64,000 nt of DNA from Methanosarcina barkeri str. Wiesmoor (GTDB lineage Archaea; Halobacteriota; Methanosarcinia; Methanosarcinales; Methanosarcinaceae), in the NCBI RefSeq assembly GCF_000969985.1, contig NZ_CP009526.1, forward strand, positions 372,001 to 436,000. The letters run 5' to 3'. The stretch's first letter is position 1; each line of letters begins with the position of its first letter. Positions 33,977 through 47,090 of the stretch are shown one piece after another. Position numbers and translations under genes: made by a program. The notes below the pieces were generated by a model that worked only from the letters and a program-made list of their open reading frames with translations, was not told where the DNA came from and did no database searches.

Positions 33977-34150
33977 TACTCCTGTTCGTTTTCCAGGAGG
34001 CAAGAATCGAATTTTTAAGTACCATTAAAATCAGTATGTTCCTGCCTCCGGGAACGACGAGGTTCAAATTCACTCTGGGACATCCATTTAAACCCCCACA
34101 AACTACTTTTGATTAACTGTTTATATGTTTTATGACCAGATCATCAAACA
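33977..34150 (+). repeat. Shared upstream region, copy 1
   Basis: This stretch resembles 39871-40080 (before the secreted protein gene at 40197); its last third resembles 42326-42420 (before the chimeric peptidase gene). An inverted repeat GGAGGCA ... TGCCTCC (33996-34002, 34043-34049) is kept in the second copy as GGAGGC ... GCCTCT. It lies ~220 bp before the M28 gene. It may be a conserved leader or promoter region of these secreted-protein genes. Confidence 0.55.
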
Positions 34151-34373: not shown

Positions 34374-36080
34374 ATGATTGATATTAAAAATATTACACAT
34401 TACATATTTTCACATACATATCTTATAATTTTTTTAATATTATTAGTACCTTCCTCAACAGCTATTGCACTCTCTAATAACATATCTTCCGATTTCAATA
34501 TTCATTATAATAACACGTCAGTTACGCTTGATGTTTCAGAGACAGGGCTTGAAAACTCAACCCGAACAATATCTTCCTTTGGGGAAAGAAAAATAGGAAG
34601 TCAGAACGCTGCAGAAGCCTCTCTATTTATAAAAGAGGAGATGGAAAAGGCAGGCCTGCAGGTTTCTCTGGACAATTTTTCCGCGCGGGTACGTACACGG
34701 GACTTCAATTACTGGAATGTAAGCGGCACAAACGTAGTGGGGATTAAAGAGGGAAACGACCTTAAAGACGAGATAATTCTTGTAACCGCTCATTATGATT
34801 CAAGAATAATTGTACGTCCAGAATCAGGTTTACGAGATATTTTTGATTCTGAGATAAGAAAGCCCTATCTCTGGCCAGTCTGGTCCGATACTTACGTTTG
34901 CGAATCGGCCAACGGAACCGGAGCGGATGACAATGCCGGAGGGGTGGCTTGTATGCTTGAACTTGCAAGGGTCTTGCAGAATGAGTCTTTTGACAGGACA
35001 ATATATTTCATTGCTTTTTCCGGAGAAGAATACAATCTTCTTGGCAGCCAGGCCTGGGTTGAAGCCCATTCTGAGTTGGAAAATGATATTGTTGCAGTTA
35101 TTAATGTGGATTCTATAGGAAACGAGCCTCTCTACATAGAATATCTTCCCCAGAATGCCTGGCTTAAATCCGTTCTTGAAAACGAGACAAGAGACCTAGG
35201 GATCGAAATTCAATGTGAAATTCCGGATTATTCAAGCTTTATTCATCCTTTAATCGGAGGAGATCATGAAATATTCTGGGAAAGTGATATCCCTGCAGTT
35301 GCAATTTGCCATCACAACGATAGAAACTTCCACAAGTTAAGTGATACAATTGACAATGTTGATTTTTCGGTTGTCAGGAATGCAAGTGTTCTGACTGCCA
35401 AAAGTCTCATCTATCTGGCTAGTCCTGACGAAAATCAGGGTCCTTTTGTCAATATTTCCAATTCACACGTTTCTGGAGACTCTCTTAAACTTATCTATAA
35501 AGTATCTGACCCAGAGGCTACTATTAATATCTTTTTTGACAATCAGAACCTGGGAAATCTCCAATCAGGCAGGAATTTTTCACTTCCGGAAGGAGAACAT
35601 ACTATCAAAGTTTTTGCAACCGACTGTTATGGAAACAGAGGCTCTGATAGTATAAATATTGTAAATGAGAAAAACCAAAATAGAAGTTTTGAGCCTCCAA
35701 GTCAGGATAAAAAATACTGCGGTAATTATATAATTGGGTACCCAAAAAATTTTGTGGACTCAAATAGAACTCTTTATTTTTATCTGGATAATTTTGGGCC
35801 TCTGTATCCAGGGAATCTTTTGATTCTTACTCCAGGAAGTCATAACCTAAAAATATGGTCAGAAAATGAAAACGGAACTGTGTTTATGGAGAATGAAATT
35901 TCTGATTTTAGAAAATACTCTATGGAAATGATTGAGATAAATAATCCGATTGCTGATCGTAAAAATCCTCTTCTTTTCCTTTCATGTTTATTTGCAATTT
36001 TGGCTATTGTTGCGTTTTATGGGAAGCGGATAAAAAGAAAATTATTGAATCTAAAAGGTTCTAAAGATAAATATAAATAA
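34374..36080 (+). CDS. Secreted, membrane-anchored M28-family metallopeptidase
   Basis: 568 aa. The N-terminal signal sequence is ~12-34. The M28 Zn-peptidase domain is ~55-345, with ligands and catalytic residues visible: His140 and Asp142 (TAHYDSR), Asp185/186 (GADDNAGG), Glu218-Glu219 (FSGEEYN), Asp in AVINVDSIGN and His in CHHNDRNFHKLSD. After it come two Ig-like beta domains (DPEATINIFFDNQNLG), and a C-terminal membrane helix (LLFLSCLFAILAIVAF) precedes a basic tail. The enzyme would act as an aminopeptidase or related peptidase on the outer face of the membrane. A close paralogue is at 42535-44310. Confidence 0.9.
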   Translation: MIDIKNITHYIFSHTYLIIFLILLVPSSTAIALSNNISSDFNIHYNNTSVTLDVSETGLENSTRTISSFGERKIGSQNAAEASLFIKEEMEKAGLQVSLDNFSARVRTRDFNYWNVSGTNVVGIKEGNDLKDEIILVTAHYDSRIIVRPESGLRDIFDSEIRKPYLWPVWSDTYVCESANGTGADDNAGGVACMLELARVLQNESFDRTIYFIAFSGEEYNLLGSQAWVEAHSELENDIVAVINVDSIGNEPLYIEYLPQNAWLKSVLENETRDLGIEIQCEIPDYSSFIHPLIGGDHEIFWESDIPAVAICHHNDRNFHKLSDTIDNVDFSVVRNASVLTAKSLIYLASPDENQGPFVNISNSHVSGDSLKLIYKVSDPEATINIFFDNQNLGNLQSGRNFSLPEGEHTIKVFATDCYGNRGSDSINIVNEKNQNRSFEPPSQDKKYCGNYIIGYPKNFVDSNRTLYFYLDNFGPLYPGNLLILTPGSHNLKIWSENENGTVFMENEISDFRKYSMEMIEINNPIADRKNPLLFLSCLFAILAIVAFYGKRIKRKLLNLKGSKDKYK

Positions 36081-39870: not shown

Positions 39871-40190
39871 TTACTCCTGTTTATTTTTCAGGAGGCCTAA
39901 CCAGGTAAACTTTTTAAGTGCCTTCAAAACTAACATTTCCTTGCCTCTGGGCACGTGGAGTTCAGGTGAACCTGGAAAGTCTGTTTGAACTCCACTGGAC
40001 ATCTTTTTAAATGTTAATTTTTTGATAGGAATTTTCTTTTATAACTAATTTGTGACCAAATCATCCAACTGAAAGTATACCCAAACTTAAATTTGAGTTC
40101 TTTTAAAATTTATAGAGCTATTTGCTATATAATTGAATGATTTTTCCATAAAATTTAAGTAAACTCTTTTGGCACGTATTAACAGGAGAA
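39871..40190 (+). repeat. Shared upstream region, copy 2
   Basis: It is homologous to 33977-34150 over its first ~200 bp. From ~39990 to the start codon at 40197 it is homologous to 42327-42534 (for example TTTGTGACCAAATCATCCAACTG occurs in both). It holds GGAGGC and GCCTCTGG as a separated inverted repeat. A promoter for the gene at 40197 must lie in it. Confidence 0.6.
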
Positions 40191-40196
40191 TTTAAA

Positions 40197-40658
40197 ATGT
40201 CAAGAAAAATATTATTCATTATATTGATAGCCCTGCTTTTTTTATCCGCAACTACCGCGACAGCAGCTGAAAATGTGGAAAAAGTGAAAACCTCAAGCAA
40301 CTATACTGTAGTCTCCTCCCCTAGTACTGAAATTGGACTCGCTGACAAAGATATAGGTATTCTGACAGTCTATGATACCATATTTCAGGGAGAGACAAAC
40401 GTACATGAGAAAAAAGTTAGCAGTGGTTTAAATCTTCTAGTTGTGGATCTTAACTGGAGAGATTCGACTGATTCACTAAGGCTCAGGATATATACTCCTA
40501 GCGGCTCATTGCTAGGTTCTTATTATGATAATGCTGATGGAGCAGTTAGCGGTAGGATTCACCTGTATATTAAAAATTCAAATGGAATTGAAGCGGGAAC
40601 CTGGAAATATCAAGTATACGGGTATAGAGTGGCCGGAAAAGAAGGTTATACGATCTGA
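40197..40658 (+). CDS. Secreted beta-sandwich (PPC-like) protein, copy A
   Basis: 153 aa. Signal peptide ~1-24 (ILFIILIALLFLSATTATAAE), a short Ser/Thr-rich linker, then a ~95-residue beta-sandwich of the pre-peptidase C-terminal type (GLNLLVVDLNWRDSTDSLRL, IYTPSGSLLGSYYDN, GTWKYQVYGYRVAGKE). No catalytic residues, so a binding or structural role is likely. ACAGGAG precedes the ATG. The membrane regulator gene follows 36 bp downstream, and the pair is duplicated at 42535-45714. Confidence 0.75.
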   Translation: MSRKILFIILIALLFLSATTATAAENVEKVKTSSNYTVVSSPSTEIGLADKDIGILTVYDTIFQGETNVHEKKVSSGLNLLVVDLNWRDSTDSLRLRIYTPSGSLLGSYYDNADGAVSGRIHLYIKNSNGIEAGTWKYQVYGYRVAGKEGYTI

Positions 40659-40694: not shown

Positions 40695-41423
40695 ATGTGG
40701 AAGGTAATGTTACTTTTTATTCTGGTTCTGAGTGCCGCAGTAGGTATAACCAGTGCAGATACCGGAGGATATACCGTTGGTCCCTGCCCACCCGAAGAGG
40801 AGCTCAAAAAATTGGGTGATACCGTTGACATGAGCGGGGCGGACAGGACTCTTACCTTCTGGGAATTTCCCTTGTCATTCAAGGTAGCTTATATATTGGG
40901 ATACCTGGCTGCTTTCATTTCCTTATTCAAGCTGGCTCCCATAATTCTTGGTCAGATAAGGAGTCTAAGTAAAAATGTTACTCAAAAGAAAATTATTTGT
41001 TATGTGCTGAGGAAGCCAGGGTGTACGCCATCTGAAATTTCAAGAAACCTGAAAATTAGCCTGGGATCTATAAGGTATCAGATCAAAGCACTCAAAGCCG
41101 AAGAAGAGTTGACTTTAACGAAGGAAGGAAAGTTCACAAGAGTCTTTCAAAATTCCAATGTTTTCACAAACAACGATAAAACAATAATCTCACATCTTAA
41201 AGGCAGTACAAGAAAACAAATACTCCTTAATATTCTGGAAAATCCTGAAATTACAAATCAGGAAATCTCAGAAAAACTGAATTTAGACAAAAGCACTACA
41301 CACTGGCATATAAAAAAATTAAGGGAGGATAATATTATTTTCTCCGAAGTAGAAGGCAAGTTTACAAAATATTTTGTGAACCCGTCTGTGGAGCCGGAGT
41401 TGTTGAAATGGCTCAAAATATAA
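40695..41423 (+). CDS. Membrane-bound double winged-helix regulator, copy A
   Basis: 242 aa. An N-terminal signal (LLFILVLSAAVGITSA) is followed by a ~45-residue outside segment (GGYTVGPCPPEEELKKLG) and one membrane helix (VAYILGYLAAFISLF). Two cytoplasmic winged-helix domains follow (CTPSEISRNLKISLGSIRYQ and NQEISEKLNLDKSTTHWHIK). The topology places sensing outside and DNA binding inside in one chain. It follows the secreted protein gene by 36 bp, which suggests that protein or its ligand as the signal; this is inference. The second wHTH domain is almost base-for-base identical to copy B. Confidence 0.82.
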   Translation: MWKVMLLFILVLSAAVGITSADTGGYTVGPCPPEEELKKLGDTVDMSGADRTLTFWEFPLSFKVAYILGYLAAFISLFKLAPIILGQIRSLSKNVTQKKIICYVLRKPGCTPSEISRNLKISLGSIRYQIKALKAEEELTLTKEGKFTRVFQNSNVFTNNDKTIISHLKGSTRKQILLNILENPEITNQEISEKLNLDKSTTHWHIKKLREDNIIFSEVEGKFTKYFVNPSVEPELLKWLKI

Positions 41424-41504
41424 ACTTCGAACAGTTTTATTTCAATGTCAGTTTTCTATTAATCGATTAAACATTAGCTTTATACAAGACTTAATTATTC
41501 AAAA

Positions 41505-41660
41505 CACAGGAATAAGTCCCGGATTTTCTCCTGTAATAAACTATCCACCTTTAGAAGTTACTATAAAGTATTTTCAATTCCTACCATTCCTATATTTTCA
41601 ATTCCTTTTTGGGTTCGAGAGCAAATATCATTCCTTCCTGGAGAGGTTCATTGTAATCCT
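41505..41660 (-). pseudogene. Duplicated 3' tail of the M24 peptidase gene
   Basis: Reading leftward, [27 protein letters not shown] and GENPGLIP match the last ~45 codons of the peptidase at 45897-47090, with single-base deletions breaking the frame. It sits in the same place relative to regulator copy A as the full gene does relative to copy B. It marks the edge of a segmental duplication. Confidence 0.8.
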
Positions 41661-41679
41661 TCTTATTACTATGGGAGCG

Positions 41680-41730
41680 CAGAGGGTCACGAATACTCTG
41701 ACCTTTAGGTCGGGGATGAAGTGAACACTC
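41680..41730 (+). mobile_element. IS200/IS605-type end hairpin
   Basis: GAATACTCTGACCTTTAGGTCGGGGATGAAGT has the short GACC-TTTA-GGTC stem and downstream GGGGATGAAGT typical of the right end/reRNA tail of archaeal TnpB-bearing elements. No tnpB remains upstream, so this is a solo end next to the tnpA unit. Identification is by resemblance only. Confidence 0.45.
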
Positions 41731-41844
41731 GCTGGCTGTTTTATATTCACATAACTGTCTCAATCATCAGTTCTTTGTAAAATAAAGTTTTTTTGGCACC
41801 ATAACCACAGGTGGTGCCAGCCACCTATGGCTAGAATGTGATAC

Positions 41845-42327
41845 ATGTTGGAACTACGTAGTTTTAGCCATGGCTATGGTCAGATTACCTACCACATCGT
41901 GTTGGTACCTAAATATCGATACAGTATATTCTACAACAAGCGGATTAAAAAGGATTGCGAGTTGATCCTCAGCAGTATTTGCATGGAAAAAGGCTACAAA
42001 ATTCATGCAATGGAAGTTGTAGATGATCATGTTCACTTGTTTCTAGAGTTCCATCCAAGTACTTCTCTATCAGAGGTAATTCAATACTTGAAAGGAGGAA
42101 GTTCTTACATACTTTTCAAGCTTCATCCTGAAATGAGAAAACAGTATTGGAGTGGAAGTCTATGGTCAAGTGGAAAGTTCTATCGATCTGTTGGGAATGT
42201 AACTGCTGACACAATCAAGCATTATATTAAGGAATCGCAGAGAATAGCGAAAACAGAAGCTCAATCACATAGGTTAAAGAAATCCGGGCAAGGTGGAGTT
42301 CGAATAAACCTTCCAGAGAGAATTTGA
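41845..42327 (+). CDS. tnpA: IS200/IS605-family Y1 (HUH) transposase TnpA
   Basis: 160 aa. The HUH motif is DDHVHLFLEF (His62, His64) and the catalytic Tyr is Tyr127 in TIKHYIKES. The N-terminus ITYHIVLVPKYRYSIF is typical of the family. It nicks and joins single-stranded ends of the element. A short GGCACC/GGTGCC hairpin at 41794-41817 lies just upstream, like a left end. The gene's 3' end merges directly into the duplicated leader that precedes the chimeric peptidase, so the right end appears lost. No tnpB is linked. Confidence 0.9.
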   Translation: MLELRSFSHGYGQITYHIVLVPKYRYSIFYNKRIKKDCELILSSICMEKGYKIHAMEVVDDHVHLFLEFHPSTSLSEVIQYLKGGSSYILFKLHPEMRKQYWSGSLWSSGKFYRSVGNVTADTIKHYIKESQRIAKTEAQSHRLKKSGQGGVRINLPERI

Positions 42328-42534
42328 GCTCCACTGAATATCTTTTTAAATGTTCATATTTTTCTAGGAACTTACTCTTATAATTAATTTGTGACCAAAT
42401 CATCCAACTGAAAATATAATTAAATCTAAAATTAGATTGTTTTAAGATTTACAAAGCTATTGTGCTGATAATTGGACTATTTTGCCATAAAATTTAAGTA
42501 AACTCTATTAATACGTGTTATCTGAGAATTAACA

Positions 42535-44310
42535 ATGTCAAGCAGGATACTTTTCATTACACTGGCAACTTTACTTTTTCTATCTTCCTTTACGGCAGCA
42601 ACAATTGAAAATCTAGACGAAAGGGAACCATCAAGCAACTATACAGTAACACCGTCATTTGATACTGAAATCGGGCCAGTTAACAAGAATGTAGACGCCC
42701 TGGCGGCCTACAGTTTTGATTCCAACATGCAACATAACAACACATCTATATCTTTTGATGTTTCTCAAACCAGGCTTGAAAACTCAACTCGAATTATATC
42801 TTCTTTTGGAGAACGAAAAATTGGAAGTAAAAACGCTGCTGAAGCTTCCCTATTTATAAAAGATGAAATGGAAAAAGCAGGCCTGCAGGTTTCTCTGGAC
42901 AATTTTTCCGCGAGGGTACGTACACGTGACTTCAATTACTGGAATGTAAGCGGCACAAACGTAGTGGGGATTAAAGAGGGAAAAGCTCTTAAAGACGAGA
43001 TTATTCTCGTAACCGCGCATTATGATTCAAGAATAATTGTACATCCAGAATCAGGTTTGAAGGATATTTTTGATTCTGAGATAAGAAAGCCCTATCTCTG
43101 GCCAGTCTGGTCCGACACCTATATTTGTGAATCGGCCAACGGAACCGGAGCGGATGACAATGCCGGAGGGGTGGCCTGTATGCTTGAACTTGCAAGGGTC
43201 TTGCAGAATGAGTCTTTTGACAGGACAATATATTTCATTGCTTTTTCCGGAGAAGAATACAATCTTCTCGGCAGCCAGGCCTGGGTAGAAGCCCATCCTG
43301 AGTTGAAAGATGATATCGTTGCAGTTATTAATGTGGATTCTATAGGAAACGAGCCTCTTTACGTAGAATATCTTCCCCAGAATGCCTGGCTTAAATCCGT
43401 TCTTGAAAACGAGGCAAGGGACTTAGGGATCAAAATTCAATGTGACATTCCGGATTACTCAAACTTTATTCATCCTTTAATCGGAGGAGATCATGAAATC
43501 TTCTGGGAAAGTGATATTCCTGCAGTAGCAATTTGTCATCACAACGGTAGAAACTTCCACAAGTTAAGTGATACAGTTGACAATATAGATTTTTCGATCG
43601 TCAGGAATGTAAGTGTTCTTACTGCCAAAAGTCTCATCTATCTGGCTAGTCCTTACGAGAATCAGGCTCCATTTGTTAATGTTTCCAATCCAGAGGTCTC
43701 TGGAGCCTCATTTGAACTCCTCTATAATGTATCTGACCCAGAGGCTACTATTGACATCTTCTTTGACAACCAGAGCCTGGGAAATCTCCAATCAGGCAGG
43801 AACTTTTCACTTCCTGAAGGAAAACATACTATCAAAGTTCTTGCAACCGACTGTTATGGAAACAGAGGCTCTGATAGCATAAACATTGTAAATGAGGAAA
43901 AGCAGAACAGAAGTTTTGAGCTTTCCGACCAAGAAATAAAGTATTGCGGCGGGAAATATATAATCGGGTATCCAGAAAATTCTGTGGACTCAAACAGGAC
44001 TCTTTATTATTACCTAGATGGTTTCGGGCCTCTGGATACGGGAGGTTTTTTAGTTCTTACCCCGTGTAGTCACAATCTAAAAATATGGTCTGAAGATGAA
44101 AATGGGGTCCTCTTCATGGAAAATGAAACCTCTGACTTTAATAAATACTCTATGGAAATGATTGAGATAAATAATCCGATTGCTGATCGTAAAAATCCTC
44201 TTCTTTTCCTTTCATGTTTATTTGCAATTTTGGCTGTTATTGCGTTTTATGAGAAGCTAATTAAAAAGAGTTTTCTAGGTCAGAAGGATTCTGAAGTTAA
44301 GAAGAAATAA
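42535..44310 (+). CDS. Chimeric M28-family metallopeptidase with borrowed signal region
   Basis: 591 aa. Residues ~1-62 (ILFITLATLLFLSS; SSNYTVTPSFDTEIGPVNKN) are homologous to the N-terminus of the secreted protein at 40197, not to peptidase 34374. From HNNTSISFDVSQ on, it is ~85 percent identical by eye to peptidase 34374-36080. Zn and catalytic motifs are intact (TAHYDSR, GADDNAGG, FSGEEYN, CHHNGRNFHKLSD), as are the beta domains and C-terminal helix. The upstream 200 bp also match the 40197 leader. The peptidase therefore uses the promoter and signal peptide of another gene whose remainder lies at 44658-44954. Confidence 0.88.
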   Translation: MSSRILFITLATLLFLSSFTAATIENLDEREPSSNYTVTPSFDTEIGPVNKNVDALAAYSFDSNMQHNNTSISFDVSQTRLENSTRIISSFGERKIGSKNAAEASLFIKDEMEKAGLQVSLDNFSARVRTRDFNYWNVSGTNVVGIKEGKALKDEIILVTAHYDSRIIVHPESGLKDIFDSEIRKPYLWPVWSDTYICESANGTGADDNAGGVACMLELARVLQNESFDRTIYFIAFSGEEYNLLGSQAWVEAHPELKDDIVAVINVDSIGNEPLYVEYLPQNAWLKSVLENEARDLGIKIQCDIPDYSNFIHPLIGGDHEIFWESDIPAVAICHHNGRNFHKLSDTVDNIDFSIVRNVSVLTAKSLIYLASPYENQAPFVNVSNPEVSGASFELLYNVSDPEATIDIFFDNQSLGNLQSGRNFSLPEGKHTIKVLATDCYGNRGSDSINIVNEEKQNRSFELSDQEIKYCGGKYIIGYPENSVDSNRTLYYYLDGFGPLDTGGFLVLTPCSHNLKIWSEDENGVLFMENETSDFNKYSMEMIEINNPIADRKNPLLFLSCLFAILAVIAFYEKLIKKSFLGQKDSEVKKK

Positions 44311-44659
44311 TTGTGCTATTGGGGTCTCTTCCAAACACATTTATGTTCCCACCCACATTAACTGTATTAGCACCGAGGTCTTTTTCGATAGATACAATTA
44401 TATACCACTCACCGGGGGAGACATTTTTAGATGAGACATCTAAGTATTTTTCGAATTGATGGAAAGTGTCGTTTGCGACAGGTTGATCATTCTTATCATA
44501 TAATGTTAGGTGAACATTTCCGTAATCATTCGAATCAAACTCATTGATAAGAAGGCGGACTTCAATATTACTTGCACCCGCCACTACGGGAAAATCCTGT
44601 CTGTATTTTTCAGTATGAGGGCCGAGATCCTTATTTACGTTTTCTGAATACAGAAGCAT
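44297..44659 (-). CDS. PPC-like beta-sandwich fragment without signal peptide
   Basis: 120 aa, antisense to its neighbours. It reads as a beta-sandwich domain (DFPVVAGASNIEVRLLIN; NVHLTLYDKNDQPVANDTF; VSPGEWYIIVSIEKD) but has no signal peptide and no ribosome binding site. It ends within 14 bp of the peptidase stop. It is best seen as an inverted fragment of another secreted-protein gene carried in with the peptidase. Expression doubtful. Confidence 0.45.
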   Translation of the reverse strand: MLLYSENVNKDLGPHTEKYRQDFPVVAGASNIEVRLLINEFDSNDYGNVHLTLYDKNDQPVANDTFHQFEKYLDVSSKNVSPGEWYIIVSIEKDLGANTVNVGGNINVFGRDPNSTIISS

Positions 44660-44954
44660 GACAGTTTATGATTCCGTCAGTCAGGGAGAAACAAATCTGC
44701 ATGGAAAATACGTAGGTAGTGGTCTTACCCTTCTGGCTGTAGATCTTAATTGGGGAGATTCAACAGACTCTCTTCGGCTTAAAATATATACTCCTAGTGG
44801 CTCAGCGCTAGGTTCTTACTATGATAACACTGATGGAGTTGTTGACGGGAGAATTCGCCTGAATATTCAAAATTCAAATGGAATTGAACCGGGAACTTGG
44901 AAGTATGAAGTATATGGGTACAGGGTGACCGGAAAAGAAGATTATACAATCTGA
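44658..44954 (+). pseudogene. Detached C-terminal part of secreted beta-sandwich protein, copy B
   Basis: The 98 codons from TVYDSVSQGETN to GYRVTGKEDYTI match residues ~57-153 of the protein at 40197. The signal peptide and linker of this copy are at 42535-42717, at the front of the chimeric peptidase. About 1.94 kb has been inserted between the two halves. The ATG at 44658 could start translation but gives an unexported fragment. Confidence 0.75.
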
Positions 44955-44988
44955 ATTCTCAAACATGATTACTCAATTTATCGCTGCT

Positions 44989-45714
44989 ATGTGGAAGATA
45001 GGATTACTTTTTATTCTGGTTCTGAGTACCCTAGGTACTACGAGTGCAGACACCGGAGGATATACCGTTGGTCCCTGCCTACCCGATGAAGAACTTGAAA
45101 AATTGGGCGATACTGTTGACATGAGCGGTGCTGACGTAACGTACTCATTCTGGGAATTTCCTTTGTCAATCAAAATCGCTTACATAATCGGGTATTTGAC
45201 TGTTTTCTTTTCCTTTTTCAAACTGGCTCCCATAATTCTTGGTCAGATAAGGAGCCTAAGTAAAAATGTCAACAAAAAGAGAATTATTAATTATGTGCTG
45301 AATGAGCCTGGGTGTACGCCATCCGAAATTTCAAGAAACCTGAAAATTAGCCTGGGATCTATAAGATATCAGATCAAAGCACTCAAAGCTGAAGATAAAT
45401 TGATCTTAACGAATGAAGGAAAGTTCACAAGAGTCTTTCAAAATTCCAATGTTTTCACAAACAACGATAAAACAATAATCTCACATCTTAAAGGCAGTAC
45501 AAGAAAACAAATACTCCTTAATATTCTGGAAAATCCTGAAATTACAAACCAGGAAATCTCAGAAAAACTGAATTTAGACAAAAGCACTACTCACTGGCAT
45601 ATAAAAAAATTAAGGGAAGACGATGTCATTTTCTCTGAAGTAGAAGGCAAGTTTACAAAATATTTTGTGAATCCAGCTGTGGAGCCGGAGTTGCTGAAAT
45701 GGCTCAAATACTGA
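44989..45714 (+). CDS. Membrane-bound double winged-helix regulator, copy B
   Basis: 241 aa from ATG 44989, aligned with copy A (MWKIGLLFILVLS); the ATG at 44965 would add 8 residues. Same layout as copy A: signal or first helix, outside segment GGYTVGPCLPDEELEKLG with one Cys, membrane helix IAYIIGYLTVFFSFF, two winged-helix domains. DNA from about 45423 to 45550 is identical to 41133-41260, apart from single changes, suggesting gene conversion that keeps the DNA-recognition domain the same. Both copies should bind the same sites. Confidence 0.82.
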   Translation: MWKIGLLFILVLSTLGTTSADTGGYTVGPCLPDEELEKLGDTVDMSGADVTYSFWEFPLSIKIAYIIGYLTVFFSFFKLAPIILGQIRSLSKNVNKKRIINYVLNEPGCTPSEISRNLKISLGSIRYQIKALKAEDKLILTNEGKFTRVFQNSNVFTNNDKTIISHLKGSTRKQILLNILENPEITNQEISEKLNLDKSTTHWHIKKLREDDVIFSEVEGKFTKYFVNPAVEPELLKWLKY

Positions 45715-45896: not shown

Positions 45897-47090
45897 TCAA
45901 AACATTTGAATCAATCCAGGATTATCTCCTGTAATACACTCTCCACCTTTAGCAGTTACTATAAATGTATTTTCAATTCCTACCATTCCAATGTTTTCAA
46001 TTCCTTTTTTAGGTTCGAGAGCAAATACCATTCCTTCCTGGAGTGGCTCATCAAATCCTTCAGCAATCACAGGTGTTTCGTCGATTAGTAACCCAACCGC
46101 ATGGCCTATGAATTTAACTTTGCGGTTGCCAAAACCCATGAAATTCTGCAGAAATTCCGAATCGAGCTTATTCATTATGGTGGTGTAGATCTCCGAGGGT
46201 ATGGCACCTGGTTTTAACATTGAAGCAGCTTCGTTCTGTATTTCCACACATTTATTATGGGCATCTATGGCGTATTGTGGAAGCGAAGAACCAAACATAT
46301 ATGTGGTAGTTTTATCCGTGTTATAGCCTTCAACACCGCATCCGATATCAATGAATACCAGATCTCCTTTTTTCAGTTTTCTATCACGGCTTCCGATAAG
46401 GGGAACTGCAGGGCTCATCCCGTAAATTCCGCCAGGCCCGTTAAAGTAGGAAGGATAAATCGAGCTTTCACCGAAGCAAACATTTCCCAGGACCATCTCG
46501 GTATCGAACATTCCAAAACGGCATAATCCGTGATGTCCTTCTTCAACCATAACTGAATATAGTTCGGTTGATAGGTCTACTTCACTCATTCCTTCCTTTA
46601 GCATTTCGGGTACAAGATCTTCCAGTACATGCTGGTGAATCCTTCCAGCTTCTCTTGTTAGCGAGAGTTCATATTCGCTTTTTACTGCTCTGACAGCGCA
46701 AATTTGAGCGTCAGCAGATTTGACATTCTTAAAAGGGAAGTATTTTTGAAATCTCTGGTACAAAGCTAGAGGAACAACTTCGGTTTCAAGGTATACTGTG
46801 TTCGAAAGCCCACTTATACTCTTTGCGGCATCACGGAAACTGTTCATAGGTTTTATATTTGGAAATAAAGACTCATCCAGGGCTCTTTCGTAGCTGCGAC
46901 GTACCCAGAAAGTTGCTTCTCCATGCTTGGGGATAATCAGCATTCCATCTTGCATCGTACCTGTAAAATAATAAAGATTTATTTTGCTAAAAATAACAGT
47001 TATCTCCCATTGGGGATTTGAGATATCCATTCGTTTTCTAAAATTTCTCATCCGGTTTTTCAATTCGGTTAAGGGTACTTTTTTAATCAT
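45897..47090 (-). CDS. M24-family Xaa-Pro peptidase-like protein
   Basis: 397 aa. An N-terminal creatinase-like domain (~1-150) is followed by the pita-bread catalytic domain. Metal ligands are in place: the two Asp in [19 protein letters not shown], His in [12 protein letters not shown], Glu in [10 protein letters not shown] and Glu in [10 protein letters not shown]. It removes N-terminal residues before proline or is a dipeptidase of this fold. No signal peptide, so cytoplasmic. It is convergent with regulator copy B. Its last ~150 bp are duplicated at 41505-41660. Confidence 0.88.

Follow-up and report, generated by a model that had tools for sequence, protein, structure and literature searches.

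A membrane-anchored M28 peptidase gene of Methanosarcina barkeri with the promoter and leader type of a neighbouring secreted-protein family

Background

The window analysed here is a 64-kb stretch within a 4.87-Mb contig of Methanosarcina barkeri str. Wiesmoor. It contains an M28 peptidase gene that begins like a secreted-protein (sec) gene and is followed, behind an antisense fragment, by the C-terminal end of a gene of that same secreted-protein family (sec2). The question raised by this arrangement is whether the peptidase gene was inserted into sec2 in this genome, as the initial annotation proposed, so that the first 62 codons of sec2 became the peptidase leader, or whether leader and remnant have separate origins. 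The evidence favours separate origins. A history of one old leader swap, a later and separate truncation of sec2, and an exchange between a second peptidase gene (34374) and sequence like that of genome G010 is given a probability of about 0.86.

Results

The chimeric gene and its surroundings

The features of the locus are as follows; other genomes compared are designated by G and a number.

34374..36080, plus strand: M28 paralogue with M28-type promoter and leader, itself recombinant (mosaic identity)
40197..40658, plus strand: sec1, intact secreted PPC-like protein gene (orthologues, weak PPC match)
41663..42291, plus strand: IS200-type element (Y1 transposase), right end lost (six other copies compared)
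42290..42425, plus strand: distal upstream region of the chimeric gene, sec2 type (45-nt windows, diagnostic sites)
42426..42534, plus strand: proximal promoter region, chimera type (diagnostic sites)
42535..42711, plus strand: codons 1-59 of the chimeric peptidase, a signal peptide and linker of sec type (match to the 40197 protein, chimera-leader clade)
42712..43911, plus strand: M28 peptidase body (PF04389; mostly 90-99% sliding identity to chimeras of other Methanosarcina)
43912..44310, plus strand: 3' part of the peptidase gene, divergent, with the membrane anchor at its end (identity drop)
44311..44657, minus strand: piece of a foreign-type secreted PPC-like gene, antisense and lacking its 5' end (match to an ORF of another genus)
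44658..44954, plus strand: sec2 remnant, C-terminal 98 codons of a secreted protein, without promoter or signal peptide (low dS to full-length sec2 of G003)
44965..45714, plus strand: hth2, the downstream partner of sec2, encoding two hydrophobic segments followed by two winged-HTH domains (Pfam HTH_24, HTH_5, HVO_0163_N)

The chimera, the fragment, and the sec2 tail are all confirmed, with similarities far above chance. The gene at 42535-44310 (plus strand) encodes 591 residues and combines a sec-type start with a complete membrane-anchored M28 peptidase. In protein comparisons the secreted protein of 40197 matches residues 1-59 (51% identity, E 1e-12), and the peptidase of 34374 matches residues 60-591 (85% identity, E 0). 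The initial annotation had assigned about 62 codons to the leader and the next 530 or so to the peptidase; the second match stands as proposed and so does the first, but the junction lies at about codon 59-61 (about 42711-42717). The upstream DNA at 42323-42520 is also 80% identical to that at 39984-40181. The peptidase does carry a promoter and a signal peptide of the secreted-protein family, as had been suggested.

It is scarcely conceivable that this structure is an assembly artefact. The region does contain repeated paralogous sequence, but with differences of 10-20% the paralogues are too far apart to mislead an assembler; the genome is in two contigs with 99.95% completeness, and other species show the chimera in independently assembled genomes.

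The M28 domain of the chimera (PF04389) scores 116 bits in Pfam against a curated cut-off of 21.3 (E 2e-33). The metal-site motifs TAHYDSR, GADDNAGG, FSGEEYN, INVDSIG, and HKLSDT are intact in both the chimera and 34374, and the key residues are kept in A1. From what is known of the M28 family, we take the H, D, E-E, D, and H of these motifs to be the metal ligands. Solved relatives were found by sequence search, and the predicted structure of the chimera itself (pLDDT 31.8) is too low in confidence for use. With dN/dS of 0.19-0.28 the body is under purifying selection which, together with the retained motifs, argues that the chimera is a functional enzyme. A signal-like hydrophobic segment at residues 1-19 and a C-terminal hydrophobic anchor at residues 554-572 indicate that the product is probably an ectopeptidase.

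The secreted-protein family to which the leader belongs is only faintly PPC-like. Both the secreted protein and the antisense fragment match the PPC domain (PF04151) at 16.8-17.2 bits, below the curated cut-off of 25.9. The predicted structure of the secreted protein is a beta-sandwich of modest confidence with weak likeness to PPC/subtilase C-terminal domains; a search of the model against the PDB gave no match at E ≤ 0.001, and the top-ranked TM values of about 0.2-0.3 are not meaningful. Orthologues of sec1 occur in G003, G012, and G030 (76-89%). The HTH proteins have two hydrophobic segments and two winged-HTH domains, and hth2 is a paralogue of hth1 at 40695 (87% match).

Several further observations concern these flanking genes. 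Behind hth1, at 41502-41655, lies a remnant of the 3' end of an M24 peptidase gene (compare 45897-47090), which marks an old duplication of sec-hth-peptidase; similar remnants are present in G003 and G004. An inverted repeat, GTGGAGTTC...GAGCTCCAC, with a TGCCTCCGGGCA motif forms a conserved element at 34010-34110, 39900-40000, and 42283-42330, that is, upstream of the sec gene, the chimera, and, in diverged form, the 34374 gene; it is found in relatives as well. An in-frame TAG occurs at one and the same position in the secreted-protein genes of G006 and of G008 (L081 8023-8481, L083 4829-5203). Methanosarcina can read TAG as pyrrolysine, and this codon may be either a pyrrolysine codon or just a shared stop.

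The leader and the sec2 remnant differ in age

The codons at 44658-44951 match residues 56-153 of the 40197 protein (77%), and to that extent the secreted protein resumes here as initially annotated; it is not, however, the rest of the gene that supplied the leader. The remnant is 94% identical in protein sequence to the sec2 of G003, with a dS of 0.09, whereas the dS between the chimera leader and the leader of the same G003 gene is 0.87. The two pieces are therefore not two halves of one gene. The dS between the chimera leader and the sec1 leader is 1.08, and the likeness of these two leaders is old, of earlier date than the close matches found in other parts of the locus. At 59 codons the chimera leader is short, and its dN/dS values (0.33-1.04) are noisy. 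G003 has no chimera at this locus, and the leader of its sec2 is interrupted by a stop codon. In the sec2 reading frame the ATG at 44658 is an internal Met codon, which G003 has as well. The reading frame of the remnant is still open, but it is probably a pseudogene, or nearly so, and too young for dN/dS to tell.

The tree of promoter plus leader gives the same picture. It separates a clade of chimeras (100/99) from a clade made up of the sec genes of the same group (98/99). Trees that place the window chimera with the sec2 orthologues (p-AU 3e-5), with the G003 sec2 alone (p-AU 1e-55), or with sec1 (p-AU 2e-5) are rejected.

The insertion of a peptidase gene into sec2 would explain why a sec-like leader stands on the left and a sec2 tail on the right, and also why the distal upstream DNA is of sec2 type. 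Nevertheless, it is very improbable. Five other species have members in the leader clade, from which the sec2 orthologues are excluded; the leader and the tail differ widely in dS to the same relative, as given above; and G030 has both a chimera and an intact sec gene. Such an insertion in this genome is rejected by the leader tree, the AU tests, and the dS contrast. The leader was not gained by splitting the gene whose tail lies at 44658, its clade being separate, older, and present in six species.

The chimera in other Methanosarcina species

Among the 31 genomes of the genus searched, full-length chimeras with the same leader are present in G004, G030, G012, and G026 (79-85% over the whole length), and that of G028 is 5'-truncated, with its first 14 or so codons replaced by other DNA. 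The chimera is thus old and common to six species, including that of the window. In G030 the gene order is chimera, intact sec, hth, and M24 peptidase, with a spacing of 517 bp between chimera and sec; the chimera leader is accordingly not the part that 44658-44954 has lost. Both G012 and G026 have the order chimera, a sec remnant decayed to about 120 bp, and hth. On the basis of these three genomes it is most likely that chimera and sec2 were neighbours and that sec2 has been lost in several lineages. G006 and G022 have sec-hth alone, without a chimera.

A single clade of the six chimeras, separate from 34374 and G010, is likewise recovered from the first 600 nt of the M28 body (100/99), and grouping the window chimera with 34374 is rejected (p-AU 8e-5). 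Placing 34374 on the chimera side in these 600 nt is not rejected (p-AU 0.23). The middle segment of the M28 gene rejects a single chimera clade; the trees differ between segments because the M28 copies exchange segments.

As a separate observation, a decayed sec gene in G002 (L084 7646-7950) has a short patch of chimera type in its leader, GAAAATTTAGACGAAAGAGAACC, which suggests conversion between chimera and sec leaders.

The peptidase gene at 34374 and the direction of the swap

Between about -250 and +250 the identity of 34374 to G010 is approximately 94%, and the remainder of the gene is mostly nearest to the chimeras. With a G010-like promoter and leader on a chimera-like body, 34374 is itself a recombinant mosaic and not simply an untouched source of the chimera. 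Its distal upstream DNA resembles that of the sec and chimera genes (up to 62%).

This recombined promoter and leader might suggest that the peptidase originally had the sec-type leader and that 34374 acquired its M28-type leader secondarily. This is improbable, since the M28-type N-terminus (SSD..IHYNNTSV) is common to 34374, G010, and the separate second M28 lineage of G004/G028, and sec-type leaders among the M28 genes are found on chimeras only. The distribution of the M28-type N-terminus indicates that it is the older state and that the sec-type leader is derived.

A third M28 copy in the same genome (L012 2278-6302; 73%) is followed, on its own strand, by a distant secreted-protein gene and by an HTH gene. 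M28, secreted-protein, and HTH genes therefore probably belong to one old neighbourhood.

G030 contains a decayed second chimera (L076 12624-13283) at a position matching that of the 34374 peptidase in the window; it has a chimera-type leader and a 34374-like C-terminal part.

Breakpoints and the truncation of sec2

Breaks were mapped at 42377-42434, at about 42711-42717, at about 43912, and at 44657/44658. To the left, the 45-nt windows of 42290-42425 are 98, 98, and 100% identical to the sec gene of G002, 93-98% to the sec2 of G003, and 71-98% to other chimeras. The diagnostic sites 42342 and 42377 are sec-type, and from 42434 to 42711 nearly all diagnostic sites are chimera-type; the change from sec2-type to chimera-type sequence thus falls between 42377 and 42434, some 100-160 bp before the ATG. 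The sec2-type DNA from 42290 to about 42425 suggests that the chimeric block probably recombined into the sec2 region here, rather than simply standing beside sec2. Of the initial picture, the position of the block between sec2-type flanks is upheld, but the leader is not sec2's own.

At about 43912 the identity of the peptidase gene falls abruptly, from 90-97% with its best relatives to no more than 85% with any known copy; the exception is some 75 nt within 43912-44310 that are 97% identical to the 34374 copy. A search of 112 genomes of the family for the source of this segment found no relative in other genera and no close donor within Methanosarcina.

The antisense fragment starts right behind the stop codon of the chimera. 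Its ORF (44297-44659) is real, weakly PPC-like (E 0.011), and has no signal sequence, in agreement with the inverted, signal-less fragment of the initial annotation. It has no match in the 30 other Methanosarcina genomes. Two genomes from a different genus of the family carry an intact ORF for a 172-aa secreted protein, to which the fragment is 80% identical in nucleotide sequence. The junction of the fragment with sec2, at 44657/44658, falls at about codon 56 of sec2 and shows no evident shared bases.

These junctions bear on how sec2 was truncated, and here a variant of the preferred reading, differing from it in this respect only, has a little less than an even chance. According to this variant, a ready-made chimera block (about 42425-44657), with the foreign fragment, took the place of the sec2 promoter and the first 55 or so sec2 codons in one event, by a homologous exchange on the left, in the shared promoter, and a non-homologous one on the right. 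The breakpoint between 42377 and 42434 and the right junction without evident shared bases both fit, and the same mechanism has been put forward for effector modules of Vibrio that leave 3' remnants behind (PMC5361080). On the other hand, the chimera already stands directly ahead of sec/hth in G030, G012, and G026, so that the neighbours may have come first and the truncation of sec2 later, and the second breakpoint at about 43912 needs another event.

The IS200-type element was considered as the agent of insertion and rejected, because its right end is missing and it is absent beside the chimeras of G004, G030, G012, and G026. It lies on the left side only. Its right end was lost at a 9-bp shared sequence, TCCGGGCAA (42283-42291), where it is joined to the sec2/chimera upstream DNA, whereas six other copies (97% identical) run past TCCGGGCAA into a different right end. 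The transposase frame (41663-42291) reads into the sec2/chimera upstream DNA and ends in GGVRINLPERI instead of RRINEF.

Discussion

Proposed history

Under the preferred reading, the promoter, signal peptide, and linker of about 35 residues of a sec gene would have replaced, in an ancestor of several Methanosarcina species, those of a neighbouring M28 gene, the part lost being the promoter and signal peptide of what is predicted to be a membrane-anchored M28 aminopeptidase. The in-frame join lies a few residues after the original signal peptide and thus leaves the mature enzyme, the metal site, and the C-terminal membrane anchor whole. Expression of the ectopeptidase would then likely be governed by the sec promoter, and its export would likely depend on the sec leader. 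Later, in this lineage, the promoter and first 55 or so codons of sec2 would have been replaced by the antisense foreign fragment of about 350 bp, with one junction presumably in homologous promoter or peptidase DNA and the other non-homologous, a route that may be described as homology-facilitated illegitimate recombination. As for 34374, its mosaic structure is observed, and its promoter-and-leader exchange may have brought in G010-like sequence.

A wider proposal is that promoter-and-signal cassettes are swapped repeatedly and adaptively between neighbouring surface-protein genes of Methanosarcina, the M28 gene having gained the sec cassette and 34374 having regained the M28 cassette. This is tentative, and on balance unlikely. 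If it were true, different regulators would control the copies of one ectopeptidase, and these regulators might be the membrane-bound HTH proteins whose genes lie next to those copies. Methanosarcina is genetically tractable, so that regulation by the swapped promoter is directly testable.

The locus documents well an archaeal swap of signal peptide and promoter, in which the donor family, the recipient family, the intermediates, and the breakpoints are all readable. It also illustrates that finding a chimera next to the remnant of a matching gene does not by itself imply a single insertion, because leader and remnant may differ in age, as they do here.

Comparison with known systems

In the open-licence literature, no earlier report was found of signal-peptide exchange in Methanosarcina or archaea, nor of terminal reassortment of a Sec-exported archaeal enzyme or archaeal ectopeptidase. 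The process is nevertheless a known sort of gene remodelling, of the terminal reassortment type. In terminal reassortment, as described in PMC5675462, the end of a gene that carries a secretion signal is fused to a different coding body, which yields a new exported protein in one step; it was described for type III/IV effectors of bacteria (Stavrinides et al. 2006, via the same source). The chimera is similar in that its N-terminal signal and upstream region come from one family and its body from another. It differs in having a Sec-type signal peptide, in an archaeon, and in the involvement of neighbouring genes, and also in that the body was already exported, so that only promoter and leader changed.

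In the displacement of Vibrio T6SS effectors by homology-facilitated illegitimate recombination, the older 3' sequence is left as a remnant (PMC5361080, PMC3240628). The locus appears to share with this system an end in homologous DNA and a non-homologous other end, and it likewise has a 3' remnant. Unlike in Vibrio, the route is suggested here by the junctions only, no immunity genes are involved, and the remnant is a truncated secreted-protein gene.

Like the M28 aminopeptidases (PF04389; YwaD, Vibrio leucyl aminopeptidase), the chimera has a complete M28 domain with all the expected metal-site motifs, but it has in addition a C-terminal extra region and a membrane anchor. Finally, the mosaic identity between copies, within and between genomes, is as in gene conversion and recombination among tandem paralogues, except that the exchange here also swaps non-homologous promoters and leaders.
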